A stretch of DNA of 26,346 nucleotides. It comes from a virus. Position 1 is the first letter of the stretch, and the number at the start of each line of letters is the position of its first letter. Positions 1,399 through 23,658 of this stretch are shown here, in pieces. The stretch is taken from the IMG/VR virus record IMGVR_UViG_3300027969_000379, positions 1-26,346 of that record; one strand, 5' to 3'. The notes below the pieces were generated by a model. It was not told the origin of the DNA. It made no database searches and saw only the letters and a program-made list of their open reading frames with translations. A program made the position numbers and the translations under genes.

Positions 1399-1407
1399 GG
1401 AATAAAT

Positions 1408-3021: not shown

Positions 3022-3023
3022 GC

Positions 3024-5116: not shown

Positions 5117-5125
5117 GGAGTAATC

Positions 5126-8976: not shown

Positions 8977-8979
8977 CCC

Positions 8980-9693: not shown

Positions 9694-9827
9694 TAGGAGT
9701 GGCGGTATGCATAACTGTTGGAGTTACATCAATGGCGTACGTGGAAACCCTATACATGCGAGCACAGTTAAAGCAAGAGATAAAAGAACTTCGTAAACTC
9801 AAACGTGAATTGAAGGAAAGTAAATGA
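9651..9827 (+). CDS. 58-residue membrane protein with basic coiled coil, nested in lysis cassette
   Basis: Starts within the C-terminal membrane segment of the previous gene in another frame and ends in the ATGA that starts the holin. It has one strong transmembrane segment (residues 9-31, LIWWILIGVAVCITV) followed by a charged helix (QLKQEIKELRKLKRELKE). A short N-terminal membrane anchor plus a charged helix next to a holin and endolysin recalls inner-membrane spanin subunits, though it is shorter than usual and no outer-membrane lipoprotein partner was found. GTG at 9660 is an alternative start. No strong ribosome-binding site, as expected for a coupled gene. Confidence 0.6.
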   Translation: MGDVGNTKLIWWILIGVAVCITVGVTSMAYVETLYMRAQLKQEIKELRKLKRELKESK

Positions 9828-10321
9828 ATGAACTATTCGGTCTTCTCAAGGGTATCGCACCCACGTTGGCAACTGCTGTCGCTGGTCCTTTGGGTGGGGC
9901 TGCTATTTCCGCTTTGGCTTCTAAGTTTGGTGTTTCTGATTCCGTTGATGCTGTGGCTAAAGCTATCGCGGGTGATCCACAGGCGGCGCAAAAACTCCAA
10001 GAATTAGAGTTAGAGATGGCCAAGCTAGACATGGCTAATACTGCTGACGCGCGCAAAATGAATGCAGATATTCAAAATTCAGCAGTCGCGTCGTGGTTGG
10101 CAAAAAACATTGCCTATGTCATCGACGTCTCAATCATTGCTGGCGCTCTCACCATGACCTTTGTGGTTTTCATAGTCGGCGTCCCAGAACAGAACAAGAG
10201 CATGGCGTTTACAGCTTTAGGGTCGTTGTGGACGTTAACGGGTACTGTTGTAAACTTCCATCGTGGGTCTTCCGCAGGGAGTAAAGCCAAAACCGAAGAA
10301 CTTATGAAAGGCGCAAAATGA
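9824..10321 (+). CDS. Holin, 3TM (gene-transfer-agent type)
   Basis: 165 residues with three hydrophobic segments: a Gly/Ala-rich one near residues 8-35, one at about 90-120 (AYVIDVSIIAGALTMTFVVFIVG) and one at about 126-142 (AFTALGSLWTLTGTVV). These are separated by a charged helix with an AGDPQAAQKLQELELEMAKL pattern, and it ends with NFHRGSSAGSKAK. This layout matches the GTA_holin_3TM family (PF11351). Holins form membrane holes that release the endolysin at the end of infection. GGAAAGTAA lies just before the ATG. It overlaps its neighbours at both ends (ATGA). Confidence 0.75.
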   Translation: MNELFGLLKGIAPTLATAVAGPLGGAAISALASKFGVSDSVDAVAKAIAGDPQAAQKLQELELEMAKLDMANTADARKMNADIQNSAVASWLAKNIAYVIDVSIIAGALTMTFVVFIVGVPEQNKSMAFTALGSLWTLTGTVVNFHRGSSAGSKAKTEELMKGAK

Positions 10322-10635
10322 TTGAATTCTTAAAACAATTGATGATAGCCAGGGTCAACCGGCCACAACCTACTGTCGAAGAAGTCGAAGTCCAAGTATG
10401 GTCTTTTGTTGTTAAGTCGATCACTATCATGGTTCTAGGCATCGCTTTTGGCGTTTTGTATTTGATTGGATTTGAGAAGCAAGACCCAGAACTCGCGCCT
10501 ATTGACTCTGTATTTTTGGAAATCTTAAAAGCCATTGCCTTTATGGGCGTGGGAACAATGGGCGGTATATCTGGACGTAAGGCGTCTACCGCAATAGCAA
10601 AAGCAATCGTAGGAGATCAAAATGAACCTAAGTGA
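10318..10635 (+). CDS. Small two-pass membrane protein, possible second holin / antiholin
   Basis: 105 residues with two hydrophobic segments: about 29-49 (SFVVKSITIMVLGIAFGVLYLIG) and about 68-87 (ILKAIAFMGVGTMGGISG). It overlaps the holin by ATGA and the endolysin gene by 14 bases. Two holin-like genes in tandem before an endolysin often work as a holin and a partner or antiholin. That role is inferred from position and topology; no family was recognised. Confidence 0.65.
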   Translation: MIEFLKQLMIARVNRPQPTVEEVEVQVWSFVVKSITIMVLGIAFGVLYLIGFEKQDPELAPIDSVFLEILKAIAFMGVGTMGGISGRKASTAIAKAIVGDQNEPK

Positions 10636-11050
10636 ACACTTTACTCTTGAAGAACTAACGCACACAGATCACAGAGACTTGGACAATACGCCAAACGAGG
10701 CAGAGTCTGCCAATTTGCGTAGGCTGGCCAGTTTTCTAGAGCAAGTCAAAACTGTACTTGGCGGCAAACCAATCATGGTCAACTCTGCGTTTCGATCTAA
10801 GGCGGTCAATGATGCTGTAGGCTCAAAAGATAGCAGCCAGCACCGCGTTGGTTGTGCAGCCGACATACGCGTGCCTGGCATGACGCCTGATGAGGTAGTG
10901 AAAGCTGTCATTGCGTCTGGTATTGGCTACGATCAAATCATTCGGGAATTTGACCGCTGGACGCATATCTCTGTGCCAAACCTATCCACATCGACGCCAA
11001 GGCAACAAGCCTTGATCATCGACAAACAAGGCACTAGAACTTACGCTTAG
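10622..11050 (+). CDS. Endolysin, peptidase M15 family
   Basis: 142 residues. It contains the zinc-peptidase pattern of M15-type D-Ala-D-Ala or L-Ala-D-Glu peptidases: SAFRS (55-59), SSQHRVGCAADI with H74 and D81, and WTHIS with H115. The three residues are the expected zinc ligands. Together with FTLEELTHTD at the start, this is the Peptidase_M15_3 arrangement common in phage lysins. It cleaves peptide cross-links in peptidoglycan once the holin opens the inner membrane. There is no signal peptide, so it depends on the holin. AGGAG lies 8 bases before the ATG. Its stop codon overlaps the stop of the convergent gene on the other strand. Confidence 0.85.
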   Translation: MNLSEHFTLEELTHTDHRDLDNTPNEAESANLRRLASFLEQVKTVLGGKPIMVNSAFRSKAVNDAVGSKDSSQHRVGCAADIRVPGMTPDEVVKAVIASGIGYDQIIREFDRWTHISVPNLSTSTPRQQALIIDKQGTRTYA

Positions 11051-11921: not shown

Positions 11922-12109
11922 GGGCGTCTGGCCTCCTGCAGTATCTCGATACGCTCTCTCGCAGCGCGCAAGGTTGTGTAGCGCTGGTGCAGCCGCTCCA
12001 AGACGGCCACACGTTTGCCAACTTCGCGTTCGTCGGTCAACATCTCCAACACCTTGACTTCATCCAAGGTCCTAAGTTCAGCGTTTAATTTTCGCCATGT
12101 AAGTGTCAA
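11918..12109 (-). CDS. Conserved phage hypothetical protein, 63 residues
   Basis: Entirely helical and highly charged: LNAELRTLDEVKVLEMLTDE then VLERLHQRYTTLRAARERIE. This pattern recurs in short phage proteins near helicase and nuclease genes, of unknown function. Overlaps the downstream gene by ATGA and the upstream one by 32 bases. Confidence 0.65.
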   Translation of the reverse strand: MTLTWRKLNAELRTLDEVKVLEMLTDEREVGKRVAVLERLHQRYTTLRAARERIEILQEARRP

Positions 12110-12245
12110 TTTTTGTCTCCAGTTTAGTGATTGTGTTTAGGGTTTTTACTAATGTTCGATTGGCGGCGTTAGCGTCTTTCTGATGTATTTTTAAGATGGA
12201 CCGCGCGGCTTTAAGCTGCGCTTTCCACAGGTTTAGTCTAGTCAT
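12078..12245 (-). CDS. Small helical protein, 55 residues
   Basis: Start chosen at the ATG at 12245, which overlaps the helicase stop (ATGA) and has GGAGGAATTGAA just upstream; a longer frame from 12302 would run inside the helicase gene. The protein is basic and helical (LWKAQLKAARSILKIHQKDA, then KTLNTITKLETKIDTYMAKIKR). No family recognised. Confidence 0.6.
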   Translation of the reverse strand: MTRLNLWKAQLKAARSILKIHQKDANAANRTLVKTLNTITKLETKIDTYMAKIKR

Positions 12246-13537
12246 TTCAATTCCTCCATGGCGATATCTGACAAGGCGCGTTTGTCGTGCAGCGCGGCCC
12301 AAATCTTCTCATCTACTGTTTTATTAGAAATCATTACGTAGCACCACACGTCATGCCGCTGGCCGCTACGATGCAGACGCCCGATGGTTTGTTCATACAG
12401 TTCGAGCGACCAGGGCAGGGACAAGAAGACGATTCGACTGCCGCCGTGCTGCAGGTTGAGTCCATGGCCGGCTGACTTGGGGTGGACCAAAAGAAGTTCG
12501 ATGCTCCCAGCATTCCATCGTTCAATAGCGCGGTCGTCGTCAAGGGTGGCGGCTTTGGGGTATCTACGTTTAAGTTCGGCCAACTCTTCTTTGTACGTGT
12601 ACGCCACCAAAGTATTGGCATGTTGGTTTTCCTCCAATAGTTCGTCAAGCCGCTCAAATTTAGACGTGTCAAACCATACGGGTTTATCCGCATATACAAA
12701 GCCCGACGCCATTTGTTGCAGCTTGGCCGTCACGACGCCGGCGTTAACTGCAATCGCGCGGTCGTTAGGAAACTGTGCGACAAACTCAGTCTTCATGTCG
12801 TCATAGGGTTTACGATTAGTTAGGTTACCGCGCACTTCAACTGTGTGCAGGGCCGGCAGTTTGTCTTTGTATTCGCCTGGCTCCAATACAAACGTCGCCG
12901 GCTTGATGCGTTCCATAACCAAAGCCAAGGCGCCAGGGCGCGGCTGCCAATCGTTGTACTCGCGGTTGATCAACGCAAAGTACTGCTGCATAAACGCGCC
13001 CTTGGCGCGGCCAAGCAGGTTTTGGTCGACGATCTTGCACTGGCCAAAGACGTCCTCTAAGCCGTTGCTAGTGAAACTGCCGGTAAGCCCCCAGCGGATC
13101 ACCATGGGCTCGATCACTTTGTTGAGCGCCTTAAACCGCGCGCCTGATGGATTTTTTAGCCGCGTGAGTTCGTCAAACACAATGGCGTCAAAATCAAGTT
13201 CTTGTTCGGCCAGCCACTGCAGGTTGTCGTAGTTAGTCACAACAATGCGCGCGCTAGACGCCAGCGCTGCTAGACGCTCTTTCGGTGAGCCAACGGCCAC
13301 AGCGATCTCTTGACGTGGCGCCCATTTAGGCTGCTCCACGGGCCACACGTCAGTGCAAACGCGTTTAGGCGCCAGCACTAGAAAACGTGTGACCTCGCCA
13401 TTGGCGAGCATGTCTTGCATGGCCGCTAGGGTGATGGCAGTTTTGCCCGCCCCTACCGGCGCCAAGATCATGGCGCGGTCGCGCTCGTACAGAAAGTCAG
13501 CCGCCTCAATTTGATACGGCCTCAATGATCCAACCAT
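12242..13537 (-). CDS. Snf2-like SF2 helicase / translocase
   Basis: 431 residues with ordered superfamily 2 motifs: Q-like RPYQIEAADFL (6-16), Walker A APVGAGKT (26-33), DELTRLKNP (122-130) as motif II, LTGSFTSN (151-158) as motif III, SAGHGLNLQ (355-363) as motif V, and QTIGRLHRSGQ (383-393) as motif VI. The order and the last motif are those of phage Snf2-type DNA translocases. Motif II is DELT rather than DEAH. It is encoded with a VRR-NUC nuclease overlapping upstream, a pair widely conserved in phages that probably acts in replication or recombination. AAGGAG lies 7 bases before the ATG. Confidence 0.85.
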   Translation of the reverse strand: MVGSLRPYQIEAADFLYERDRAMILAPVGAGKTAITLAAMQDMLANGEVTRFLVLAPKRVCTDVWPVEQPKWAPRQEIAVAVGSPKERLAALASSARIVVTNYDNLQWLAEQELDFDAIVFDELTRLKNPSGARFKALNKVIEPMVIRWGLTGSFTSNGLEDVFGQCKIVDQNLLGRAKGAFMQQYFALINREYNDWQPRPGALALVMERIKPATFVLEPGEYKDKLPALHTVEVRGNLTNRKPYDDMKTEFVAQFPNDRAIAVNAGVVTAKLQQMASGFVYADKPVWFDTSKFERLDELLEENQHANTLVAYTYKEELAELKRRYPKAATLDDDRAIERWNAGSIELLLVHPKSAGHGLNLQHGGSRIVFLSLPWSLELYEQTIGRLHRSGQRHDVWCYVMISNKTVDEKIWAALHDKRALSDIAMEELK

Positions 13538-13787
13538 CTATTTGCTCCTTGCTCCATAAACATGCGTACTTCTGATTCATTAGCGCCATGTCTGACGCGA
13601 ATATTTTTTGCAGTTCTGACAAACGCCCATCAGGCGCCTTCAGTTCGATAAACCAAGTCTGGCCATTTGGCAAACAAACTACTCTATCGGCAACGCCTCT
13701 GTGCGCCGGACTAGTAAATTTGTACGCCCTACCGCCAAGGTCCTTGACGCGTTGCACTAAATATTTTTCGATTATTTTTTCTTTCAT
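13506..13787 (-). CDS. VRR-NUC domain nuclease
   Basis: 93 residues, a minimal PD-(D/E)XK nuclease of the VRR-NUC family. Visible: E7 or E8 in the first helix, GVADRVV with D34, FIELKAPDGRLSELQ with E48 and K50, and Q60. Such stand-alone phage domains cleave branched DNA and usually neighbour a Snf2 helicase, as here (32-base overlap). First gene of the leftward operon; no clear Shine-Dalgarno sequence lies before the ATG, and no convincing leftward promoter is seen in the 69 bases to the divergent gene. Confidence 0.85.
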   Translation of the reverse strand: MKEKIIEKYLVQRVKDLGGRAYKFTSPAHRGVADRVVCLPNGQTWFIELKAPDGRLSELQKIFASDMALMNQKYACLWSKEQIDGWIIEAVSN

Positions 13788-13797
13788 GTCAAAAAGT

Positions 13798-13827
13798 TTA
13801 ACACACTATTATTTTTTGTGCTATAGT
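13798..13827 (+). promoter_or_regulatory. Sigma70-like promoter for the replication operon
   Basis: TTAACA (13798-13803), an 18-base spacer, then TATAGT (13822-13827), each one mismatch from consensus, lies 29 bases before the GTG start at 13857, with AAAGGAGA as ribosome-binding site between. The host RNA polymerase is the likely user because no phage RNA polymerase gene is visible. Confidence 0.6.
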
Positions 13828-13856
13828 TCAATCTCAATCAACTAAAGGAGAGTTCA

Positions 13857-14978
13857 GTGCAACACAGTAATATCGTCGGCGGTTCAACCGCAAAGCGTGT
13901 GATCAACTGCCCAGGCTCAGTAGCCTTGGTGCAAAAGATGCCGCCCCAACCAAGTAACAAATACGCAGACGAAGGCACGCTGTTGCACAACGTCATTGCT
14001 GAAATCGTGATGAGCGATAGAACGCCTGAGAGTTTTCTTGGTACTAAATACGAAGACCAAGTTCTTACGCAAGAATTGATCGACAACAAACTCAAAGTCG
14101 CGCTGGCCGCGCTTGATGAGATCGATCCAAACAAAGAGATGCAAATTGAAGCTGAGACTCGCGTCGGCTTTGGTGATCTCTTGCCTGGCGTATTCGGTAG
14201 CACTGACCTTATCGGTCGGATCGGTGACCGCGCTGTCGTTCTAGATTGGAAGTTTGGCGACGGCGTCGCTGTGGAAGCAGAAGAGAATGCACAGCTAATG
14301 TTCTACGCCGCTGCGGCCATGCGTACTGAAGGATCAAAGTGGGCGTTCGATGGTGCTACTGAGATCGAATGCATCATCGTGCAGCCGCCGGCAATCAAGC
14401 GCTGGGTGACTACACCAAAACGCATTGCAGAGTTCGAGGCGCAATTGATGCGTGCGGTTAAAGAAGCAGAGCATCCTAACGCGATGATCCGCACAGGCGA
14501 TCATTGCCGCTGGTGTACCGCCAAACCAATCTGCCCACAGATGACCGGCGCCGCCGACCGCGCGTTGCAAGTAGCGATCAAATCGTTAGACGCAAACATG
14601 ATCGGCAGCTACTTGGCCAATGCTGATATATTAGAAGATTGGATCAAGGACCTGCGCGCCTTGGCCCATCAAATGTTGGATAGCGGCGCCCCTGTGCCAG
14701 GGTATAAACTGGTACAAAAGCGCGCTACACGTCAATGGGTGGACGATAAAAAAGCCGCCGACGCATTGACCGCAATGGGCCTAGAAGCCTATAAAGAACC
14801 AGAGGTCCTATCGCCTGCACAGGCTGAGAAGGAACTCAAAAAGCGCAAGTTGGCATTGCCTGACGATCTTGTCGTGGCAGTGTCTTCAGGCACAACGCTT
14901 GCCCCGGAGAGTGATCCCCGGTCAGCAGTGTTGCAAATCGGGAAGCAGTTAACTGCAGCCCTTTCTAAAATCAACTAA
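13857..14978 (+). CDS. RecB/Cas4-like PD-(D/E)XK exonuclease (DUF2800-like)
   Basis: 373 residues. The fold signature is in order: EGTLLH (40-44 region, H44), GSTDLIG with D117, VVLDWKFGDG with D130 and K132, and AEENAQLMFYA. C18 together with C217, C220 and C226 (HCRWCTAKPIC) gives the four-cysteine arrangement of iron-sulfur-stabilised AddB/Cas4 nucleases. Phages place this gene directly before a ssDNA-binding protein and DNA polymerase, where it probably resects DNA for replication-linked recombination. GTG start, preceded by AAAGGAGA. The next gene follows after 10 bases. Confidence 0.85.
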   Translation: MQHSNIVGGSTAKRVINCPGSVALVQKMPPQPSNKYADEGTLLHNVIAEIVMSDRTPESFLGTKYEDQVLTQELIDNKLKVALAALDEIDPNKEMQIEAETRVGFGDLLPGVFGSTDLIGRIGDRAVVLDWKFGDGVAVEAEENAQLMFYAAAAMRTEGSKWAFDGATEIECIIVQPPAIKRWVTTPKRIAEFEAQLMRAVKEAEHPNAMIRTGDHCRWCTAKPICPQMTGAADRALQVAIKSLDANMIGSYLANADILEDWIKDLRALAHQMLDSGAPVPGYKLVQKRATRQWVDDKKAADALTAMGLEAYKEPEVLSPAQAEKELKKRKLALPDDLVVAVSSGTTLAPESDPRSAVLQIGKQLTAALSKIN

Positions 14979-14988
14979 GGAAAATCAA

Positions 14989-15621
14989 ATGAGTTTAGTA
15001 ACCTTCTCTAAAGCAAACCTCCCCGCAGTCAGTTCGTTGGCAACGTCGTTGCGAACAATCCAATCCGAAGTAGGCGCAGCCGGCGTTGTCATCTTAAAGA
15101 TGGACAAGACCGGTCACTGGGTATTCGGCGCGGATCAAACCGAAGTCGAAGACGACTCTCTGTGGGCCATCAATCCCTTTTCTTTTGTCCACGGCTTTAT
15201 CGCTTGGGGTGACGGCGAAGTGTTAGGTGAAAAGATGGCCAGCGTAAGCCAGCCATTACCTGCATTGGAAGAGGCGCCGCCTCAAGCCAAGAAGGGTTGG
15301 GAGAATCAAGTCGGTATGTCTTTGAAATGCATATCTGGTGACGACAAAGGAATGGAAGCGCGCTACACCACTACTTCGGTAGGCGGTAAGCGCTCAGTGC
15401 AAACGCTCGCAGTGGCATTGGCTGATCAGGTCGACAAAGACCAGACCAAACCAGTGGCCGTCGTGCGTTTGAAGAAAGACCATTACGCGCATAAGTCCTA
15501 CGGCAAAATCTACACGCCTGTGTTTGAGATTGTCGAATGGATTTCTATGGACGCAGATGCAACCGACGTAAAAGTCGAAGCAGAAGCGGAGCAACCTAAG
15601 CGTCGTCGTCGGTCTGCCTGA
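14989..15621 (+). CDS. Putative ssDNA-binding protein (by position)
   Basis: 210 residues. Two halves are joined by a Pro/Ala linker near residue 95. The second half (VGMSLKCISGDDKGMEARY, then KDHYAHKSYGKIYTPVFEIVEW) reads as beta strands with aromatic residues, as in OB-fold ssDNA-binding proteins. The tail is acidic, then ends in an Arg-rich KRRRRSA. It occupies the position held by DUF2815-type ssDNA-binding proteins between DUF2800 nuclease and polymerase genes, but does not visibly match DUF2815. Its TGA overlaps the polymerase ATG (TGATG). Function is an inference from context. Confidence 0.5.
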   Translation: MSLVTFSKANLPAVSSLATSLRTIQSEVGAAGVVILKMDKTGHWVFGADQTEVEDDSLWAINPFSFVHGFIAWGDGEVLGEKMASVSQPLPALEEAPPQAKKGWENQVGMSLKCISGDDKGMEARYTTTSVGGKRSVQTLAVALADQVDKDQTKPVAVVRLKKDHYAHKSYGKIYTPVFEIVEWISMDADATDVKVEAEAEQPKRRRRSA

Positions 15622-17558
15622 TGACTCTCTGGGTTGACTTTGAAACCCGTAGCGCCTGCGACCTAAAAGCCGCAGGCGTTTACAACTACGCACAAGATAT
15701 CAGCACCAAAGTGTTGTGCATGTCTTACGCTTTTGACAACGACGACGTGCAAACTTGGTTGCCAGACCAACCATTCCCCGCTGCCGTAGCCCAGTACACC
15801 GGTTTGATCTACGCCCACAACGCAGCGTTTGAGCGCCTGATCTTTTGGTATGTGCTACAAATGAATTTCAAGCTGGAGCAGTTCTACTGCACAGCAACGC
15901 AGGCCCGCGCCAATTGCGCGCCTGGATCACTAGAAGACGTTGGCCGCTTTGCTGGCGCGTCTATGAAGAAAGACCATCGCGGCGCGCAGTTGATTCGCTT
16001 GCTGTCTATCCCGCAGGCCAATGGATCATTCAGGCAAGACGCTACGCTTATGGCTGAGATGATCGCCTACTGTGAGCAAGACGTGCGCGCCATGCGTGCT
16101 ATCAGTTTAGGTATGCGCCCGTTGAGTAAAGATGAGTTAGCCGACTACCACGTCAACGAACGTATCAACGATCGCGGCGTCATGGTAGACGTGCCACTGT
16201 GTCAAGCTGCGGTTAAATTTGCCAGCGATGAAATGATCGAGATCGAGCAAATCGTCGACGAAGTAACCGAAGGCGCAATCACTAGCGTGCGCTCACCTAA
16301 GATGCGCCAATGGGTGATTGATCGTGTAGGCCCGCAGGCGTTAAAGCTGATGGAGTCTCACAAAGACGGCGAGAAGAAATATTCGATTGACAAAACAGTG
16401 CGGGCTAATTTGCTCGCCATGGAGAATCCAGATGAGATACCGCCCGCTGTTGCCGAGGTTATACAGTGCGCCGATGACCTATGGGCGTCGTCGGTTGCTA
16501 AGTTCAGCCGCCTTGCAGACCTTGCAGACGTCGAAGATCAAAGAGTTAGAGGCGCGTTTGTCTTCTCTGGAGGATCAGCGACAGGCCGCGCTAGTTCATA
16601 CGGCGCCCAGGTCCACAACTTCACCCGTAAGTGCGCTGCCGAGCCCGACGCAGTCCGTAATGCTATGGTCAGAGGCCACACAATCGTCCCCAAGTACGGC
16701 GAACGAGTTACCGACGTACTTAAAGGAATGCTTAGACCAGCGCTCATCCCTGCAGCAGGCAAGCAATTGGTTGTGGCCGACTGGTCAGCAATCGAAGCAA
16801 GGGTAAACCCGTGGCTGTCTAATTGCTTTGCCGGCGAACGCAAACTAGAAATCTTTGCCAAGGGCGAGGACGTTTACAAGGTCAATGCGGCCGCGACGTT
16901 TGGTGTGGCAGTCGATGCGGTAGACGATCGTCAACGTCAAATCGGCAAGGTGCAAGAGTTGGCTTGCGGCTTTGCCGGTGGCATTGGCGCCTTCGCGGCC
17001 ATGGGCCGTGTCTATGGCGTGCATCTACCTGAGTCCGACGCCAAGCGCATGGTGGATGCATGGCGCAGGGCCAATGCTTGGTCGGTGCCTTACTGGCAAA
17101 AGCTAGAGGAATCCTACACGCGTGCCATGCGAAACAAAGGCCATGAGTTCCCCGTCGGCCGTGTAACGTACATGTTCGATGGCCAGCACCTTTGGTACAT
17201 GTTGCCTTCTGGCCGTGTGCTTTGCTACCCGTACGCAAGACTAGAACAAGACGGGATAAGCTATGCCAAGGCGGCATGGAAACCTGCAGCAGATGCAAAA
17301 GAATGGCCGCGTGCAAGACTTTGGAAAGGGTTAGCGTGCGAGAATATCACCCAGGCCGTAGCCAATGATTTGTTGCGTCACGCCCTGCGCCAATTGGATG
17401 ATGTAGTGCTACATGTCCACGACGAAATCGTGCTAGAAAGCGCTGATCCAGTGGAAGCCGCCGCGAGGCTAGAGAAGGTAATGTGTACGCCGCCTGCCTG
17501 GGCCAAGGGTTTGCCCCTTGCTGCCGGTGTGTCGGTTATGACAAGATATGGAAAGTAA
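15621..17558 (+). CDS. Family A DNA polymerase with 3'-5' exonuclease
   Basis: 645 residues. Exonuclease domain: DFET (6-9) for Exo I, AHNAAFE (near 65) for Exo II and YCEQDVRAM (near 150) for Exo III. Polymerase domain: motif A VVADWSAIEARV with D387, motif B with K443 in RQIGKVQELACGF, and motif C VHDE at 599-602 with catalytic D601. Motif A has DWS in place of the usual DYS. The residue matching E. coli Pol I Phe762 is Leu447. It is the replicative polymerase of this phage and is much shorter than bacterial Pol I because it lacks the 5' nuclease domain. ATG overlaps the previous stop. Confidence 0.95.
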   Translation: MTLWVDFETRSACDLKAAGVYNYAQDISTKVLCMSYAFDNDDVQTWLPDQPFPAAVAQYTGLIYAHNAAFERLIFWYVLQMNFKLEQFYCTATQARANCAPGSLEDVGRFAGASMKKDHRGAQLIRLLSIPQANGSFRQDATLMAEMIAYCEQDVRAMRAISLGMRPLSKDELADYHVNERINDRGVMVDVPLCQAAVKFASDEMIEIEQIVDEVTEGAITSVRSPKMRQWVIDRVGPQALKLMESHKDGEKKYSIDKTVRANLLAMENPDEIPPAVAEVIQCADDLWASSVAKFSRLADLADVEDQRVRGAFVFSGGSATGRASSYGAQVHNFTRKCAAEPDAVRNAMVRGHTIVPKYGERVTDVLKGMLRPALIPAAGKQLVVADWSAIEARVNPWLSNCFAGERKLEIFAKGEDVYKVNAAATFGVAVDAVDDRQRQIGKVQELACGFAGGIGAFAAMGRVYGVHLPESDAKRMVDAWRRANAWSVPYWQKLEESYTRAMRNKGHEFPVGRVTYMFDGQHLWYMLPSGRVLCYPYARLEQDGISYAKAAWKPAADAKEWPRARLWKGLACENITQAVANDLLRHALRQLDDVVLHVHDEIVLESADPVEAAARLEKVMCTPPAWAKGLPLAAGVSVMTRYGK

Positions 17559-17583
17559 AAAGCCGCCTTGCCGGGCGGCTTTT
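17558..17583 (+). terminator. Rho-independent terminator after DNA polymerase
   Basis: A 10-base-pair perfect stem, AAAAGCCGCC / GGCGGCTTTT, with a 6-base loop (TTGCCG). It begins at the last base of the polymerase stop codon. The A-tract and T-tract are in the stem, so it could act in either direction. The primase-helicase gene starts 19 bases further on, with no promoter between, so readthrough must occur if that gene is to be expressed from the same promoter. Confidence 0.8.
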
Positions 17584-17602
17584 CTGTCAACAAGGAGATG
17601 AC

Positions 17603-19870
17603 GTGGAGTTTTTAGATTATATCTGCAACCTAGCCCCAGAGGGCGAAACACCTTTAATAGTACGACAAAAACCACAGTTGAGAAACGGCGAAGTGCAGCT
17701 ACACGCTGACGGCGCCATTGTCGCAACGTGGCCGTCGTATCTGCCGACCAAGCAAAAACCCAAAGAAGGCCAAGCGTGGTATGTGAACACCGGCAGCTTT
17801 ATCGTTGACCGATTCAAAGACGGCAAAGTCAGCGCGTCCAAGGACAATATTGAGTTTGTGCTTTGCCTGATGTTGGACGACATTGGAACGAAGTCCAAGG
17901 AGCCGCCATTAGCGCCAACGTGGAAGATCGAATCGTCGCCTGGTAATTTTCAGTGGGGCTACGCATTCAGTGAGCAACCATCCAAGGCCGCGTTTGTTGC
18001 TGCGGTCGACGCAATCGCAGAGGCCGGCTACACCGACCCAGGCGCGCGTAATCCGGTCCGTAACTTTCGACTGCCCGGCTCTGTAAACCTGAAACCTACG
18101 GCAGGCGGCTTTGTTAGCCGGTTAGCTGAATTCAATCCAGAGCGCGAGTACACCCTGCAAGATATCTGCGACGCTCTAGGTGTTATCCCTAAACCGGAGC
18201 AAGGCGACACTTTACGCCCGATTAAGATGGCCGACGATGGCAACGACGATGTTTTACGTTGGCTATCGGATAACAGTTTGCTATTGTCAAAACCTAATGG
18301 GCTAGGTTGGGCCGGCGTCATTTGTCCTAACAGCGCGCAACACAGCGACGGCAACCCAGAAGGTCGCTACATGCCGGCAACCCGTGCATATTGCTGCTAC
18401 CACGGCCACTGCCAAGAGTTAAATTCCCACACGTTCTTAGAATGGGTGGCCGACAACGGCGGCCCTAAACATACGCCAGGGCTGCGCGAGGAACTCTTAA
18501 CCCAAGCTATGGATCAGGCGTTATCTAAACTCACGCCAACCGACATGTTCAAAGACGACGCTGCCGCGATCGTGGCTGAAACTGAACGCAAGGAACTAGG
18601 CCGGGTAGAAAAATCTGAATGGTGGGACCGGTTTGCCTACATCCAAGAAGACGACGCCTATTTTGATATGCAAGACCGGCGCGAACTCGCGCGTGGCACC
18701 TTCAACGCATTGTTTAGGCACATCGGCTGCAAGTCGGTCCACAACGGCCGCAAGATAGAGGCGTCTTACTCCTTTGACGAAAACCGGCAAACCAAAGGCG
18801 CCAAGGCGCTAGTTGGCATCACTTACGCCGCAGGGTCATCGGTGTTAGTCGTGCGCGACGGGCAAACCTACGGCAACCGCTGGCGCGACGCTAGACCTAA
18901 ACCCGTGCCAGGCGACGTCACGCCATGGCTGCGGCACGTCGAGCGCATGGTCCCTGAAGCATTCGAGCGTGAGCACTTACTTAACGCGCTCGCGCATAAG
19001 GTCCAATTCCCAACGCACAAAATAAACCACGCGATCTTAATGGGTGGCAACCATGGCTCCGGCAAGGACACATTATTCGCGCCGTTCTTTTGGGCAATCG
19101 GAGGCGAGGCCAAGCATAATTGCGCGCTAGTCAAAAACGAAGACCTAAACTCGCAGTGGGGTTACGCGTTAGAGTGCGAAGTTATGGAAATAGCCGAGTT
19201 ACGCCAAGCTGAAGCCAAGGACCGGCGCGCGTTAGAAAATACCCTAAAGCCAATCATCGCCGCGCCGCCTGAATTGCTGACAATCAACCGCAAGGGCCTT
19301 CACCCTTACTACGCCCTTAACCGGGTTTTTGTTATCGCGTTCTCAAACGAACGCGTGGCAATCTCACTGCCAAGCGAAGATCGCCGGTGGTTTGTATTGT
19401 GGGCGGAGGCGTCAAAGCTAAACGAAGCGCAGGCAACGGCTTTGTGGAACTGGTACCAAAGGCGCGGCGGCTTTGCTGCAGTGGCTGAGTACTTACACAA
19501 ACGCGACGTAAGCGCTTGGAATCCATCGGCGCCGCCGCCAATGACTGAAGCCAAGGCCATAATGATCGAGCACGGCATGAGCACATCAGAGGCTTTTTTA
19601 GTCGATCTTATTCGCAGGCGCTCCGGTGAATTCTCGCGCGGTGTAGTCGGCGCGCCCTTTCATGGCCTATGCGACCGGCTGCAAGGCCAGGCGCCAACCG
19701 GTGCCAAGATAGTGCAAGGCGCGTTATTGCACGCGTTAAAAGAGGCCGGCTGGAGTGACATGGGCCGCATTAAGTCGCGCGAGTATGACAACCGAAAGCA
19801 TGTATTTTGCGCGCCCGACATGGCCGGCATGTCGAAGTCGGACCTTCGCCGCATGGTCGAGACAACATAA
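17603..19870 (+). CDS. AEP primase fused to helicase (DUF5906-like)
   Basis: The frame is open upstream into the polymerase gene, but AAGGAG at 17592-17597 points to the GTG at 17603, giving 755 residues. The N-terminal part has LMLDDIGTK (D92, D93) and WKIESSPGNFQWGYAF, as in archaeo-eukaryotic type primases of the RepB-primase kind. A zinc-binding segment follows (C241, C264, C265, H267, C270). The C-terminal half has Walker A GGNHGSGKD with K488, then VMEIAELRQAE and SNERVAISLPSEDRRWFV, as in DUF5906/D5-like helicases. It should prime and unwind DNA for the polymerase upstream, replacing a T7 gp4-type enzyme. Confidence 0.85.
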   Translation: MEFLDYICNLAPEGETPLIVRQKPQLRNGEVQLHADGAIVATWPSYLPTKQKPKEGQAWYVNTGSFIVDRFKDGKVSASKDNIEFVLCLMLDDIGTKSKEPPLAPTWKIESSPGNFQWGYAFSEQPSKAAFVAAVDAIAEAGYTDPGARNPVRNFRLPGSVNLKPTAGGFVSRLAEFNPEREYTLQDICDALGVIPKPEQGDTLRPIKMADDGNDDVLRWLSDNSLLLSKPNGLGWAGVICPNSAQHSDGNPEGRYMPATRAYCCYHGHCQELNSHTFLEWVADNGGPKHTPGLREELLTQAMDQALSKLTPTDMFKDDAAAIVAETERKELGRVEKSEWWDRFAYIQEDDAYFDMQDRRELARGTFNALFRHIGCKSVHNGRKIEASYSFDENRQTKGAKALVGITYAAGSSVLVVRDGQTYGNRWRDARPKPVPGDVTPWLRHVERMVPEAFEREHLLNALAHKVQFPTHKINHAILMGGNHGSGKDTLFAPFFWAIGGEAKHNCALVKNEDLNSQWGYALECEVMEIAELRQAEAKDRRALENTLKPIIAAPPELLTINRKGLHPYYALNRVFVIAFSNERVAISLPSEDRRWFVLWAEASKLNEAQATALWNWYQRRGGFAAVAEYLHKRDVSAWNPSAPPPMTEAKAIMIEHGMSTSEAFLVDLIRRRSGEFSRGVVGAPFHGLCDRLQGQAPTGAKIVQGALLHALKEAGWSDMGRIKSREYDNRKHVFCAPDMAGMSKSDLRRMVETT

Positions 19871-19892
19871 AAAAAGGCCCCTTTCGGGGCCT
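19869..19892 (-). terminator. Hairpin terminator, stronger leftward
   Basis: Stem AGGCCCC / GGGGCCT (19875-19881 and 19886-19892), loop TTTC. On the minus strand the hairpin is followed by a run of seven U, a classical terminator for the leftward small-gene operon. Rightward it is followed by CTTACTTTTT, weaker but probably enough to end the primase-helicase transcript. Confidence 0.8.
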
Positions 19893-19893
19893 C

Positions 19894-19965
19894 TTACTTT
19901 TTACGCCTGCCTAGAATAATCTGCAGGGCCAAAGCTGCTAAGGCGTACCACATGTCTGCCCCCAT
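19894..19965 (-). CDS. Possible 23-residue membrane peptide
   Basis: MGADMWYALAALALQIILGRRKK: one hydrophobic segment with a basic end. It overlaps the end of the upstream gene in another frame and stops right at the terminator. No convincing ribosome-binding site, so it may be chance; kept because the operon carries similar tiny membrane genes. Confidence 0.3.
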   Translation of the reverse strand: MGADMWYALAALALQIILGRRKK

Positions 19966-20177
19966 GCGTTGACTAGCGCGTGGGCGTCATATTCCGGCGG
20001 TTTTTCGGCCACAGTAAACAAGCCAGCGCCGCGCCGTATCCGGCCCCAGGCGTCGCGCCGGTTTTGGTTTACAAGCTGGCCGCGCTTAACTGCAGCATAT
20101 ACCTGGTCGCGCGTATAACCCTCAGTTTCGCATTCGTGCATGGTGCGCGGTATCGCACAGTAGTCGGTCAACGTCAT
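19938..20177 (-). CDS. Small putative DNA-binding protein, 79 residues
   Basis: Start chosen at the ATG at 20177, which overlaps the stop of the upstream gene (ATGA) with GGGGG nearby; the longer frame to 20210 lies inside that gene. The segment ECETEGYTRDQVYAAVKRGQ followed by a basic loop (RRDAWGRIRRGAG) reads like a helix-turn-helix with a wing. No family named. It may regulate genes of this operon; inferred only. Confidence 0.55.
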   Translation of the reverse strand: MTLTDYCAIPRTMHECETEGYTRDQVYAAVKRGQLVNQNRRDAWGRIRRGAGLFTVAEKPPEYDAHALVNAWGQTCGTP

Positions 20178-20503
20178 AAGCCGGCCCCCTTCATTGCTGC
20201 GGCTTTGCACTGCTCCACCTGGTCATCGGTTAAACCCTGCGCGAATTCTTCGGCCATGTCCGCGCACTGCTGCGCGGCTTTCGCGTTTGGCGCGGTTAGT
20301 CCCAGCACCAAGGCGCGGATCACTAACTCAGTCGGCGAGGGTTTAGGCGCCGGCTGCAGGTCCTCAGCTTCAACGACGGCCTGCGCGTCGCTGCGCGTTA
20401 GCCCCTCATCTTCAAGCGCTTGCACGCGGGTTTCATAACTAAGCGCAGGCGGCGGCGCGAATGGTTTAAGCGCATCCTGCAAAATTTTAGGTATGTTATT
20501 CAT
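20174..20503 (-). CDS. Hypothetical helical protein, 109 residues
   Basis: The start at 20503 overlaps the previous stop by 8 bases. It contains a short three-helix-like motif, RVQALEDEGLTRSDAQAVVE, a pattern seen in many small phage proteins and reminiscent of UBA-like bundles, then a Pro-rich link and an Ala-rich helical end with one Cys-containing segment (QQCADMAEEFAQGLTDDQVE). No catalytic motif. Function unknown. Confidence 0.6.
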   Translation of the reverse strand: MNNIPKILQDALKPFAPPPALSYETRVQALEDEGLTRSDAQAVVEAEDLQPAPKPSPTELVIRALVLGLTAPNAKAAQQCADMAEEFAQGLTDDQVEQCKAAAMKGAGL

Positions 20504-20786
20504 TGTCGGCCACCTCGCAATAACTGTCTTCACCGACCGGCGCCAGGCACGGCAGCTCGCGCAGCTGGTCCCAAGCTACCGGCAGCAAGTGTTTTACATG
20601 GTTTAGGCTTTCGTATTTGGCCACATAGTCGGCCGTGCTCATGTCGTCAAAGTAAACCGGGTAAAACCGGCGCTCCGGTCCCTTAGACTTAACGCGCTTA
20701 TGTTTACCGGTGCATTTTGCGTGGTGCGCGAATATATCTTCGCGTTTGGTCGTATATCGTGTTTTCCCTATTGTTATCGTTTGCAT
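20496..20786 (-). CDS. Hypothetical protein, 96 residues
   Basis: Start at the ATG at 20786 with GGAGA upstream; a TTG five codons earlier is less likely. The N-terminal half is basic (TIGKTRYTTKREDIFAHHAK, then KHKRVKSKGPERRFYPVYF) and the second half is neutral to acidic. Six Cys/His residues are scattered but form no obvious zinc site. Possibly a nucleic-acid-binding protein; no family recognised. Confidence 0.6.
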   Translation of the reverse strand: MQTITIGKTRYTTKREDIFAHHAKCTGKHKRVKSKGPERRFYPVYFDDMSTADYVAKYESLNHVKHLLPVAWDQLRELPCLAPVGEDSYCEVADNE

Positions 20787-20788
20787 GG

Positions 20789-20866
20789 TTAGATTCTCCA
20801 AATAAATAAATCAAGCGCTAGCACGGCCAGCGCGGCCAGATAAATAAAAATTGTGATGTGTCTCAT
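20789..20866 (-). CDS. 25-residue membrane peptide
   Basis: MRHITIFIYLAALAVLALDL then FIWRI: one membrane-spanning helix with charged ends. GGGGAA precedes the ATG, which overlaps the stop of the upstream gene (ATGA). Its last bases carry the GGAGA ribosome-binding site of the next gene. The precise fit in the operon supports it as a real gene. Function unknown. Confidence 0.5.
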   Translation of the reverse strand: MRHITIFIYLAALAVLALDLFIWRI

Positions 20867-21018
20867 AAATTCCCCAAAAAATAATTATCAAAATCAAATA
20901 CGGCCACATAGAAGCCGCGCGGGCCGGCTTGTACCTCATAGCGCCAGGCGTCGGCATCCTGCGCGGCCAAGCTATCGGCCAGCGCCTGCGCGGCGGCTTT
21001 CGTTTTAAAGTAGGTCAT
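20863..21018 (-). CDS. Small hypothetical protein, 51 residues
   Basis: An Ala-rich helix (FKTKAAAQALADSLAAQDAD) then strands (WRYEVQAGPRGFYVAVFDFD) ending near FLGNL. It resembles small helix-plus-strand phage proteins that begin with a similar KAAAQALAD helix. ATGA overlaps at both ends; GGGAGCAGG precedes the ATG. Function unknown. Confidence 0.6.
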   Translation of the reverse strand: MTYFKTKAAAQALADSLAAQDADAWRYEVQAGPRGFYVAVFDFDNYFLGNL

Positions 21019-21173
21019 GGCGCCTGCTCCCTGGCCAGCGCTTCGCGCGCCCGGTCGAGTGCATATGCTAGGCCGTCAATGCGGGCCGTGTCGGGCAGGT
21101 CTGGCGCCGCCTGGTCGGCGTAGAAAATAAGCGCTTCTAGCGCTTCGCGTAGAGTTTCGGGTTTATCGATCAT
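21015..21173 (-). CDS. Small hypothetical protein, 52 residues
   Basis: Start chosen at the ATG at 21173, which overlaps the upstream stop (ATGA). Helical and acidic: KPETLREALEALIFYADQAA, then IDGLAYALDRAREALAREQ. This amphipathic pattern is common in short phage proteins of unknown role. Stop overlaps the next start. Confidence 0.6.
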   Translation of the reverse strand: MIDKPETLREALEALIFYADQAAPDLPDTARIDGLAYALDRAREALAREQAP

Positions 21174-21409
21174 ATCGTGCAACACCCACAACACGGCGCG
21201 TCGATACAACGGCCGCGCGCGTTACGGGTGAACGTGCGATATCGGCCTTGGTCGTTTAGCGTTATTGTGTTTATTTCCTGCGCGTCATCTTCGCAGGTTA
21301 TATACGCGGTCCGCGTGGCAGTGTCATAAGCTATTTCGTCGCCTGGCCGTATCGGCGCGCCGGTCCGGCTGCAGCGGCCGGCGTATTTGGCTCTCATAAT
21401 TTTAATCAT
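21170..21409 (-). CDS. Small Cys-containing protein, 79 residues
   Basis: The start at 21409 follows a repeated leader with AAAGGAAAG and begins after the stop of the DUF7227-like gene; the longer frame to 21592 would lie within that gene. It reads as a small beta protein (KYAGRCSRTGAPIRPGDEIA, then AYITCEDDAQEINTITLND), and ends CCGCCTI. The CSRTGAPI...GDEI segment resembles small zinc-ribbon or SH3-like phage proteins. Metal binding through the Cys residues is plausible, not shown. Confidence 0.6.
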   Translation of the reverse strand: MIKIMRAKYAGRCSRTGAPIRPGDEIAYDTATRTAYITCEDDAQEINTITLNDQGRYRTFTRNARGRCIDAPCCGCCTI

Positions 21410-21432
21410 GTTTTTACTTTCCTTTAGGTTAT
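21410..21432 (-). promoter_or_regulatory. Repeated leader element, copy 3
   Basis: On the minus strand this reads ATAACCTAAAGGAAAGTAAA then AAC, directly before the ATG at 21409. It matches the leader at 22457-22476 over most of its length. It includes the Shine-Dalgarno-like AAAGGAAAG. Confidence 0.55.
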
Positions 21433-21454
21433 AGCGTGCGATAGTGCGCGCCCA

Positions 21455-21478
21455 TATGCGGCCGTCGCTGGCCGCATA
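21455..21478 (-). other. Intergenic hairpin
   Basis: Perfect 9-base-pair stem TATGCGGCC / GGCCGCATA with a 6-base loop (GTCGCT), lying between the stop at 21490 and the start at 21409. No T-tract follows on either strand, so it is not a standard terminator. It could protect or process the mRNA, or slow transcription. Confidence 0.45.
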
Positions 21479-21489
21479 GAGTCGAGCGC

Positions 21490-22149
21490 TTACGCGGCCA
21501 GCTTGATATCTATAACGCGCTTTCGCGTGCCGTGGGCAGGGAATCCGACAATGGCCGCGCGTTGACGTTGACATAATTGGCAGGTCGCGCACGTCACGTC
21601 GTCGCGTTGTGTGGCCGGGCAGATAACGACGGCACGGCCGGCCGGCGTCGTTGTGTTCTGCGTGGTAGTCGACGGCAGCACCACCACCACCGGACCGGCC
21701 GCATAGTCGGCCAGCCGGTCGGCGTCGTGTAGGTCATTGGCCGATAAGTTAACTGTAAAACCCCAAGCATTCGCGTGGCGTATCCAATTAATGCTTGCGG
21801 CGTCGCGGTGGTGTGAGTAAGTAAAGCCGCGCCGGCCGGTATTGGCCGCGACTAGCTGGCCTAATTTGGCAGCGTCGATTGTCGCGCCGGCTTTCGGTAA
21901 GTCGCCTGCCTGGTTGTGGCGCCACAATTGGCCAGCCGGCAGCTGCGCGACCTGGTCGGTGAACGTCGACCAGTCGGTGCCGCGCGTGCCGGCGCCGACG
22001 GCGCGCCAGTGTAGCGCGAGCGGCCCGCTGGCCGCGTAGCATTCTTTTTTTAGCTTGCAATCATCCGGGCAGCTATCGGGCTCAGTAGTTGATACCGGTA
22101 TTGGACCGGTTTTAGCGTTAGCGCTTTTTAGTGTCATGTGTACTTGCAT
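21490..22149 (-). CDS. Cys-rich DUF7227-like phage protein
   Basis: 219 residues. The N-terminal CPDDCKLKKECYA has C27, C31 and C37; then LWRHNQAGDLP, RRGFTYSHH, FTVNLSANDLHDADRLADY and VVVVLPS, repeating strand-helix units like part of a TIM barrel; then C177 and TCATCQLC (C187, C190, C193) and IVGFPAHG. I associate this arrangement with the phage DUF7227 family. The two Cys clusters could bind metal or an iron-sulfur cluster, and the whole layout faintly recalls radical-SAM-like phage proteins (Gp37/Gp68), but no reaction is known. It is the largest gene of its operon and has the repeated leader upstream. Confidence 0.7.
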   Translation of the reverse strand: MQVHMTLKSANAKTGPIPVSTTEPDSCPDDCKLKKECYAASGPLALHWRAVGAGTRGTDWSTFTDQVAQLPAGQLWRHNQAGDLPKAGATIDAAKLGQLVAANTGRRGFTYSHHRDAASINWIRHANAWGFTVNLSANDLHDADRLADYAAGPVVVVLPSTTTQNTTTPAGRAVVICPATQRDDVTCATCQLCQRQRAAIVGFPAHGTRKRVIDIKLAA

Positions 22150-22165
22150 GTTTACTTTCGTGTAG
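22150..22165 (-). promoter_or_regulatory. Repeated leader element, copy 2
   Basis: Reads CTACACGAAAGTAAAC on the minus strand, immediately before the ATG at 22149. It shares GAAAGTAAAC with copy 1 (22457-22476). Confidence 0.5.
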
Positions 22166-22209
22166 TTGAGTTGATTTTGTGGCCAGGCTGCGCGCTTGGC
22201 CGGTGATGT

Positions 22210-22452
22210 TTAGGCGCTGCGTTTTGCTTTGTGATATGCGTGGTAGGCTTTTAGTCCCTGGTGATCGATTAAAAATTCAGCATGCCGGCGCACGCCGTGT
22301 TCTACGGCCAGCGCTTCGATCGCGTTTTTAGTATCCTGGCCGCGTGCTGCGCGGTGGATCGCGCTCAGTGCGCGCGCTAGATAATCCGGACCTAGTCCGG
22401 CTGCAAAATATTGAATTGTTTTTGTAATCTCGTGTTTTTCTGCTTTTGTCAT
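22210..22452 (-). CDS. Small helical hypothetical protein, 80 residues
   Basis: First gene of the leftward small-gene operon, about 50 bases from its promoter. Helical throughout: KAEKHEITKTIQYFAAGLG, then YLARALSAIHRAARGQDT and FLIDHQGLKAYHAYHKAKR. No motif recognised. The repeated leader (CTAAACGAAAGTAAAC) ends 4 bases before the ATG. As the promoter-proximal gene it may be expressed early. Confidence 0.6.
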   Translation of the reverse strand: MTKAEKHEITKTIQYFAAGLGPDYLARALSAIHRAARGQDTKNAIEALAVEHGVRRHAEFLIDHQGLKAYHAYHKAKRSA

Positions 22453-22456
22453 AGTC

Positions 22457-22476
22457 GTTTACTTTCGTTTAGGTTA
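22457..22476 (-). promoter_or_regulatory. Repeated leader element, copy 1
   Basis: Reads TAACCTAAACGAAAGTAAAC on the minus strand, 4 bases before the ATG at 22452, within the 5' leader of the operon transcript. Related copies precede two other genes of the operon. Confidence 0.55.
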
Positions 22477-22507
22477 GTTAGTGGTTTGTCCGGCGCCCGG
22501 TGTTATT

Positions 22508-22535
22508 ATTGTAAGATAATTCCTTACGTTGTCAA
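22508..22535 (-). promoter_or_regulatory. Strong leftward sigma70-like promoter with operator-like repeat
   Basis: On the minus strand TTGACA (22535-22530, perfect), a 16-base spacer, and TACAAT (22513-22508, one mismatch). The inverted repeat GTAAG / CTTAC (22511-22515 and 22523-22527) fills the spacer and touches the -10 box, a typical repressor site. It should drive the leftward small-gene operon. Confidence 0.7.
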
Positions 22536-22695
22536 GCATTATTTTGCTAGGTGTTTTCCCTAGTAGTTTGTGGGTCACGTGTGGCCGCGTGTGGGTCATG
22601 TTTTTTCGACGTTGTGACCCACCGACGCGCCAATGAATACGCGGGTTTCAGCCTTTTGTGGGTCATGTGGACTATTATTTTATTTTATCCATGAA

Positions 22696-22716
22696 ATATA
22701 TATATATATATATATA
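22696..22716. repeat. AT dinucleotide tract
   Basis: 21 bases of alternating A and T in the middle of the repeat array. Easily melted, so suited to strand opening, but such tracts also arise by slippage. Confidence 0.9.
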
Positions 22717-22756
22717 GTAGTACTAGAGTATACGTCGACGTAAATAAGCCGTGAGG

Positions 22757-22781
22757 GGCCAGCGATTTAAATCGCGTGGCC
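22757..22781. repeat. Palindromic dyad
   Basis: Perfect 14-base palindrome GCGATTTAAATCGC (22762-22775) flanked by GGCC on both sides (22757-22760 and 22778-22781), making a 25-base imperfect dyad. It lies about 38 bases upstream of the small gene start, a position suited to an operator for a dimeric regulator. Confidence 0.7.
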
Positions 22782-22818
22782 ACATGACCCACATGACCCA
22801 CAAATGTAGAATGTGGCC

Positions 22819-23025
22819 ATGGCCCGACCTTGTAAGCCCGACACGAAAGAACTACGCCGATCGCTGACGACCGCGCAGCGCGCGATCATTCGCGCCGCCG
22901 GTGGTGGTGATCTTTCGCGAGGGTTTAACGAATTGATCGTCATATATCACCACCTGCACACAATGGGCTATCGGCCAGGCATGCGGCCCGAAAATATCAA
23001 GATAGTGCAAAATTATGAGCTTTAA
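22819..23025 (+). CDS. Small basic putative regulator, 68 residues
   Basis: MARPCKPDTKELRRSLTTAQ, then RAIIRAAGGGDLSRGFNELI and a helical end. The basic N-terminus followed by a strand (RRSLT) and two helices with GGGDLSRGFNELI resembles short phage ribbon-helix-helix or similar DNA-binding proteins. ATG chosen; GTG at 22813 in the same frame is possible. No Shine-Dalgarno sequence. The tandem repeats and the dyad lie directly upstream and could be its own operators. Function is inferred. Confidence 0.5.
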   Translation: MARPCKPDTKELRRSLTTAQRAIIRAAGGGDLSRGFNELIVIYHHLHTMGYRPGMRPENIKIVQNYEL

Positions 23026-23176
23026 GGACCCTATAGCTTTTTTCTATCATGCATTTGGCCTCCGGCTGGCCGCTGCCGGCCCGATTGCTGGCCAGTGCAT
23101 GGCGCGGTAGCTGGTAGCTGCCGGCGCCTGCCTGCCGGCCGCCTGGCCGGTTTCCTGCCGGTCCGAATTCGCTGGC

Positions 23177-23201
23177 CACATGGCCCACATGGCCCACATG
23201 G
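23177..23201. repeat. Three tandem 9-base repeats CACATGGCC
   Basis: CACATGGCC at 23177-23185 and 23186-23194, then CACATGG from 23195. One base different from the CACATGACC tandem at 22781-22801 and with the same 9-base period, so the two arrays on either side of the small gene are probably related. Confidence 0.75.
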
Positions 23202-23266
23202 CGCGCCCGGCCGCTGGCCGCCTGCCGCTGGCCGTGCGGCGCCTGGCCGCCTGCCGTGCGGAATAG

Positions 23267-23297
23267 TTGACACGGGGGGAGGGGTATTGGCTATGAT
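23267..23297 (+). promoter_or_regulatory. Possible promoter for terminase genes
   Basis: Perfect TTGACA (23267-23272) and TATGAT (23292-23297) with a 19-base spacer, longer than the optimum and G-rich. About 60 bases before the small terminase ATG. Weak but well placed. Confidence 0.4.
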
Positions 23298-23358
23298 GAA
23301 ACTTTTGCAGGAGCCACCTACCCACATAAAAAAGAAAATGGGGTTATAGTACGCAGCT

Positions 23359-23658
23359 ATGAGTTATAGGCCACCAAAAGTACTGCCAAAGACTGACTAT
23401 CAAAAAGTTAAAGAACTTAAAGAGTTGATGTTGAAGTCTGGCGGCAAGCAGGTAGCGCAAAAAGTCATCGACATTGCGCTAAATGATGAGCATCCCGGAC
23501 AGATGGCAGCGCTAAAGATGTGTATGGACCGGACGCTGCCGATCAGTATGTTTGAGAAAGACAAAGCGCAACGCGGCGCAGTGACGATTAATATCACTGG
23601 AATTGGTGCTACCACCATGGTAGAAGATATAACGGACATCGAACCAAAAGATGAGTGA
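23359..23658 (+). CDS. Terminase small subunit-like protein
   Basis: 99 residues directly before the large terminase, which it overlaps by 8 bases. It opens RPPKVLPKTDYQKVKELKEL, then KVIDIALNDEHPGQMAALKMCMDRTLPISMFEK, a pattern typical of short small-terminase-like proteins in environmental podoviruses, followed by a strand-rich tail (VTINITGIG). Small terminases recognise the phage DNA and feed it to the large subunit. No strong ribosome-binding site. Assignment rests on position and pattern. Confidence 0.7.
   Translation: MSYRPPKVLPKTDYQKVKELKELMLKSGGKQVAQKVIDIALNDEHPGQMAALKMCMDRTLPISMFEKDKAQRGAVTINITGIGATTMVEDITDIEPKDE

Follow-up and report, generated by a model that had tools for sequence, protein, structure and literature searches.

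A repeat-rich non-coding region proposed as the replication origin of a water-dwelling phage, with iterons probably bound by the C-terminal domain of its primase-helicase

Between a leftward gene that starts at 22452 and a rightward small ORF that starts at 22819, an uncultured virus record carries a non-coding region (22453-22818) crowded with short repeats in both orientations, which raises the question of what reads these repeats and for what purpose. The window, meaning the whole stretch of DNA analysed here, is the 26,346-base IMG/VR virus record IMGVR_UViG_3300027969_000379, a fragment of a genome; its genes include a family-A DNA polymerase (15621-17558), a primase-helicase, a nuclease, an SNF2-type helicase, a terminase, and a portal protein, and INPHARED gave no nucleotide match among known phage records. 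From comparison with relatives, we propose that the region is quite probably the replication origin of a water-dwelling phage and that its repeats are iterons bound by the C-terminal domain of the primase-helicase.

An exact search of the 26.3-kb record returned six copies of GTGGGTCA within 232 bp of non-coding DNA, three on the plus strand (starting at 22570, 22591, and 22658) and three on the minus strand (22615, 22785, and 22794), with none outside 22453-22818 in the whole record (chance expectation 0.55). Six copies were reached in 0 of 100 shuffles, and when the region was simulated 1000 times with a first-order Markov model, any non-simple 8-mer recurred at most 3 times, versus 6 in the real sequence. 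The real repeat unit is the 9-mer TGTGGGTCA, in tandem with a 9-bp pitch. It forms boxes 1 (22569-22577), 2 (22590-22598), and 4 (22657-22665, adjoining the AT-rich spacer) on the plus strand, and boxes 6 (22785-22793) and 7 (22794-22802, at a 9-bp pitch from box 6) on the minus strand; box 3 (22615-22622, minus strand) reads GTGGGTCA, the first base of its 9-mer being G in the window and T in relatives, and box 5 (22666-22674, plus strand), in tandem with box 4, is a degenerate version, TGTGGACTA. A 16-base arm at 22655-22670 has an exact reverse complement at 22789-22804. Further to the right, 3' of the small gene, a second box pair consists of two GTGGGCCA at a 9-bp pitch on the minus strand (23181-23198) and occupies an equivalent place in L007, L009, L010, L022, L094, and other loci; the window ORF 23095-23349 appears spurious, its HGPHGPHG being this second pair translated in frame. 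An earlier, sequence-only reading had described the six copies in two orientations and the 16-base inverted repeat, both of which stand, and had named frequent occurrence elsewhere in the genome as a refuting finding, whereas the record has no further copy; it had overlooked the 9-mer unit, the degenerate box at 22666, and the second pair at 23181-23198.

The opposed clusters are separated by an AT-rich spacer (22675-22784), a candidate unwinding element, which holds a 21-base AT tract (22696-22716) and whose AT-richest 40 bases are 92.5% AT. Three perfect palindromes were located, TACGTCGACGTA at 22731, GCGATTTAAATCGC at 22762, and GTGGCCAC at 22776; the two larger ones are imperfect in relatives and therefore less informative than the boxes. 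ORFs inside 22453-22818 look unconserved, with stops or low identity in relatives; the same reading had listed the AT tract, several perfect palindromes, and no gene within the region. The left border of the array is a conserved element, CTAGGTGTTTTCCCTA (22547-22562, plus strand), found with 0-3 mismatches in many relatives, not all; in many of them this element (variant CTAGGGGTTTACCCTA) adjoins the leftward promoter and borders the array. The promoter itself, a sigma-70-like TTGACA-N16-TACAAT (22508-22535, minus strand) with 11 of 12 consensus matches, is kept in close relatives. The array overlaps two divergent promoters, and since the leftward one lies at its left edge, binding at the boxes may affect transcription too. 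Scanning the window for Rfam families and tRNAs found nothing.

Are the repeats kept in related phages? They are, in the sense that spacing and orientation are preserved and letters changed. The boxes of the close relatives L007-L010 and L022 stand at equivalent places, mostly with T/C variation at one position, and the AT tract and TTTATTTTATCCATGAA are kept as well. A scan of viral contigs with the right-hand box pair yielded 32 stretches. Most of these also carry genes of this phage group, the helicase or others, and some consist of just a contig end with the array. A helicase-anchored sample added 80 further loci; searched without reference to the motif, most of them proved to have a box cluster 3' of the helicase with its letters changed, the array being unclear by automatic search, or the sequence too short, in the remaining ones. 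In dozens of relatives, a homologous SF3-type primase-helicase is followed, some 1.5-3.7 kb further downstream, by an array of one layout: plus boxes, a single minus box, plus boxes, about 110 bp of AT-rich spacer, and minus boxes, with a pitch that is usually 9 bp and 8 bp in a few. Box offsets from CTAGGTGTTTTCCCTA (22547 in the window), signed by strand, are about +22, +43, -67, +110, +119, -238, and -247 across types; the AT content of the spacer exceeds that of its flanks in 52 of 54 loci, with a median cluster-to-cluster length of 110 bp. It should be remembered that the relatives are uncultured contigs, many of them partial and related, so that locus counts are not independent. The complete circular podovirus MW202483, whose helicase is 51% identical, shows an equivalent anatomy with TTGGTAGTG. 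Taken at sequence level, the common theme is thus one of 9-bp iterons in two opposed clusters that flank an AT-rich spacer at conserved distances and accompany one SF3-type primase-helicase family. Two side observations concern the same relatives: a palindromic repeat family, GTTAGTG-GC-CACTAAC, directly follows the array in many of them (L144:9267-9337, L129:13688-13920, L141:9528-9740) and is absent from the window, and L203 (MW202483.1) encodes at 7083-7379 a 98-aa protein with a Bac_DnaA_C helix-turn-helix match (E 1e-17), the rest of DnaA being absent.

Which gene does the array travel with? The terminase is one candidate, as its genes come next: the array could be a packaging start (cos or pac) read by this enzyme, and the lambda cosB likewise lies upstream of terminase genes. 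We examined 48 loci having the window terminase at 86-99.8% identity together with at least 1.5 kb of upstream sequence, among which L022 alone has the helicase and the boxes; boxes occur in 0 of the 47 loci with a terminase 86-97% identical and no detected helicase, some of these contigs being short. Among 73 helicase-bearing loci, on the other hand, 59-61 carry a different terminase, and L099 and L110, with an unrelated one, keep their boxes. A site that is missing beside the same terminase and kept beside a different one is not inherited with it, and we rejected the packaging site as having next to no likelihood. Judging from these distributions, the array is evidently inherited with the helicase and not with the packaging genes.

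The small ORF (22819-23025, plus strand, 68 aa) had been put forward as an alternative origin binder; it is ribbon-helix-helix-like by eye only and has no match in Pfam or PHROG. Small DNA-binding proteins often occupy repeated sites, and an array that overlaps two divergent promoters and adjoins such a gene could be a many-site operator through which the protein represses its own promoter and the leftward one. Its family is, however, present in 21 of the 81 loci having the region and absent in 60, so that the small ORF is not supported as the iteron reader; boxes persist without it in L097, L101, and L103, and in L012 the protein is 76% identical and yet the box is different. The site is, therefore, not inherited with this regulator gene, and we consider the operator improbable, although the small protein may have a dual role in those phages that have it. 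The other neighbouring small genes fare no better as readers, as none of five neighbour families is universal (54, 37, 43, 26, and 40 of 62 loci) and none correlates with the boxes once the helicase C-terminal domain is controlled for.

The box sequence is mostly uniform inside one phage and different between phages, with at least a dozen types at fixed positions, including TGTGGGTCA, TGTGGGCCA, TGTGGACAA, TGTGGGCAA, TGTAGGCAA, TGTAAGCAA, TATGGACAA, TAATTGTCA, TGTTGGCTA, and TTTGGGTCA. This diversity bears on another possible reader, the host DnaA, which would open the origin at DnaA boxes of its own. Indeed, the reverse complement TTGTCCACA of many relatives has 1 mismatch to the DnaA box TTATCCACA, and TGACCCACA of the window has 2. 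Against this, host DnaA specificity is nearly constant, whereas the boxes vary among close phages, following the helicase domain; TAATTGTCA, TTTGGGTCA, and similar types bear little resemblance to a DnaA box, and a pattern of TTATNCACA or close to it has no match in 22453-23360, which therefore does not qualify as a DnaA-box origin. Host DnaA boxes are in our view a very improbable explanation.

This leads back to the primase-helicase as the proposed reader. Its gene (17564-19870, plus strand) matches DUF5906 at 42.7 bits, above the cut-off of 27.6, which identifies an SF3-type helicase domain; the PHROG DNA primase match spans the helicase part, RepB_primase scores 22.5 bits, under its cut-off of 24.3, and the NrS-1 polymerase helicase is matched with E values of about 2e-8 to 2e-6. 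The frame is open from 17483, and residues are numbered here by counting codon 17564, the putative start, as 1. Box sequence tracks the last ~90 residues of this protein: box distance and C-terminal domain distance correlate at 0.33-0.39, and partial correlations are 0.30-0.34 for the C-terminal domain and -0.05 to 0.05 for neighbour genes with the C-terminal domain held constant. The helicase body also correlates with box distance, as expected from shared descent. A sliding partial Mantel analysis over the whole helicase alignment gave the C-terminal domain no special prominence (0.15-0.18, with two other stretches at 0.38); being dominated by distant types, it is not decisive.

Two recombinant loci help here. 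In L195, the helicase body is 3-5% off that of TGTGGACAA/TGTGGGCAA phages and the C-terminal domain 35-38% off; this domain resembles that of TGTAAGCAA phages, and the boxes of L195 are TGTAAGCAA. L179 compared with L144/L145 follows the same exchange pattern, the C-terminal domain differences over both cases being 33-38%. C-terminal domain and array are, by every appearance, exchanged together in L195 and L179. The exchanged stretch presumably continues through the array, so that the intervening genes are swapped too, and these genes are disfavoured by the other tests.

Covariation could be narrowed down to single residues. Among 300 variable helicase columns, the seven that best predict box base 4 (742, 737, 763, 740, 755, 754, and 756) all fall within residues 737-763, and inside groups with a body identity of at least 93%, residue 737 by itself reaches an adjusted R2 of 0.88. 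Defining the boxes to be counted required a rule that was tightened post hoc by excluding second-cluster and GTTAGT palindrome words (six loci affected), with which an anchor-based box listing agrees; under this rule, Lys737 goes with G4 in 165 boxes and A4 in 0 (32 loci) and His737 with G4 in 13 and A4 in 0 (2 loci), that is G4 in 178/178 boxes for the two combined. Ala737 goes with A4 in 102 of 122 boxes and with G4 in 20, at least one A4 box being found in 22 of 23 loci; exceptions are L138 (G4 only), L311/L312 (TTTGGGTCA), and L266 (TGTTGGCTA). Residue 737 and base 4 each change 9 times on the helicase-body tree, and well-supported independent pairs agree in 5 of 5 cases in most pairings, for a p value of 0.0625 at best, the pairs being too few to fall under 0.05. 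An advance prediction, scored with the same script in four new loci, agreed with all of them, and the later loci with K737 (L259, L305, L341, and L346) all have G4; in a free search of the remaining later loci, K737 was always accompanied by G4 and A737 by other bases too, which showed Ala737 to be apparently permissive rather than specific for base 4. An A at box base 2 pairs with Ser739, in one clade only.

The C-terminal domain in question (residues 660-768; 19541-19867, plus strand) adopts a winged-helix topology in an AlphaFold2 prediction made on 32 aligned domains (pLDDT 90.3, pTM 0.81), the full-length helicase model having a pLDDT of 42. Its wing hairpin (residues 731-749; 19754-19810, plus strand) carries the main residues covarying with base 4, Lys737 (19772-19774) and Asp742; in the predicted model, residue 737 closes the first wing strand and residue 742 is in the wing loop. 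Foldseek matches to the PDB are weak (best E 0.056) and fall on winged-helix proteins and related DNA binders. From the covariation, we infer that the winged helix binds the iterons and that its wing reads at least box position 4. RFX1 contacts bases mainly through its wing, which would fit the covarying wing residues of the helicase domain. The origin-binding domain of P4 alpha is described as an RFX1-like winged helix (PMC10516667).

Of the three options in the earlier reading, an origin with the primase-helicase, an origin with the small protein, and a many-site operator, the first is favoured by family-wide linkage, by persistence of the array through terminase exchange and loss of the small gene, and by C-terminal covariation; iterons surround an AT-rich region near the gene of the putative initiator. 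By analogy with P4 alpha, SaPI Rep, and Cch2, helicase subunits would gather on both iteron clusters and open the AT spacer, and the helicase would load as hexamers, with priming to follow; on the analogy of P4 alpha and SaPI Rep, bidirectional or unidirectional replication might then begin with the phage's own family-A polymerase. GC skew was expected to turn at the region and does so neither in the window nor in the complete relative MW202483, so the skew test lends no support to an origin. Iterons can also exert control through pairing of bound origins, and the helicase-bound boxes might instead be a regulatory or copy-control site, replication starting elsewhere; the second box pair 0.4 kb off and the strong leftward promoter beside the array would suit this. 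However, an AT-rich spacer between opposed clusters at a fixed distance is the anatomy of an origin, and the window showed no other array of this kind, so that we hold copy control to be unlikely. Second clusters (23181-23198 in the window, and L144, L155, L185, and L190) are often TGTGGGCAA TGTGGGTCA (TGTAAATCA) whatever the main box type; this indifference would allow another reader or a relaxed reading.

How does the proposed origin compare with known systems? Iteron plasmid origins have repeated initiator sites adjoining an AT-rich unwinding region, and in SaPIs two sets of iterons lie on either side of an AT-rich stretch; unlike plasmid Rep initiators, which are not helicases, the initiator proposed here is the helicase itself. 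P4 carries short iterons both at ori and at crr, to which the main array and second pair of the window may be likened, whereas the iteron differs and the second pair often departs from the main box type. P4 alpha also combines primase and helicase in a single chain and binds its origin through a C-terminal winged helix, an architecture that the window protein may share; the P4 origin-binding domain was absent from the sequence matches and from the 50 Foldseek matches listed. The NrS-1 phage polymerase (PDB 6k9c, 6k9e, and 6lrb) has a related SF3 helicase, the match being limited to the helicase domain. In SaPI Rep and SCCmec Cch2, the helicase C-terminal domain recognises short iterons downstream of its own gene, and SaPI5 Rep unites primase and helicase in one chain (PMC7581432). 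The window resembles them in having its iterons downstream of the helicase gene, with C-terminal reading proposed; it differs in belonging to a tailed phage that encodes a family-A polymerase of its own, in the place of the putative origin, which lies behind leftward genes at 2.7 kb from the helicase gene, and in the wide variation of the iterons among close relatives. No sequence match was obtained between its C-terminal domain and SaPI Rep or Cch2. An origin read by the primase-helicase is well supported by comparison and would work like a known kind, the iteron origin of a primase-helicase initiator, although sequence comparison gave no link between the binding domain and those families.

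So far, helicase-type initiators that recognise iterons are known from a few satellites and islands, and a large family of uncultured tailed phages would offer a ready series on the joint change of initiator and origin specificity; a candidate origin is also placed for a phage group without a described one. More tentatively, a changed wing, or exchange of the whole domain plus array, could shift the 9-mer that is read, residue 737 setting base 4, to give a series of mutually incompatible origins, an idea we find conceivable and rather doubtful. If true, co-infecting relatives would be unable to fire one another's origins, the origin type being a private replication key, which suggests a way for close phages to keep their replication separate. 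The wide, orderly variation of boxes and domain is a reason to follow up.

As to hosts, helicase relatives with 52-70% identity (L347, L348, and L349) occur in bins named Rhodoferax and uncultured Betaproteobacteria; MAG contigs with relatives hint at Betaproteobacteria, the binning of phage contigs being uncertain. Finally, the structural half of the window (1-11000) has a GC content of about 0.39-0.52, compared with 0.48-0.61 for the replication half (12000-23300). This contrast, together with a terminase that recurs, 86-97% identical, in phages lacking this helicase, makes the window look like a modular recombinant with the putative origin near one junction.
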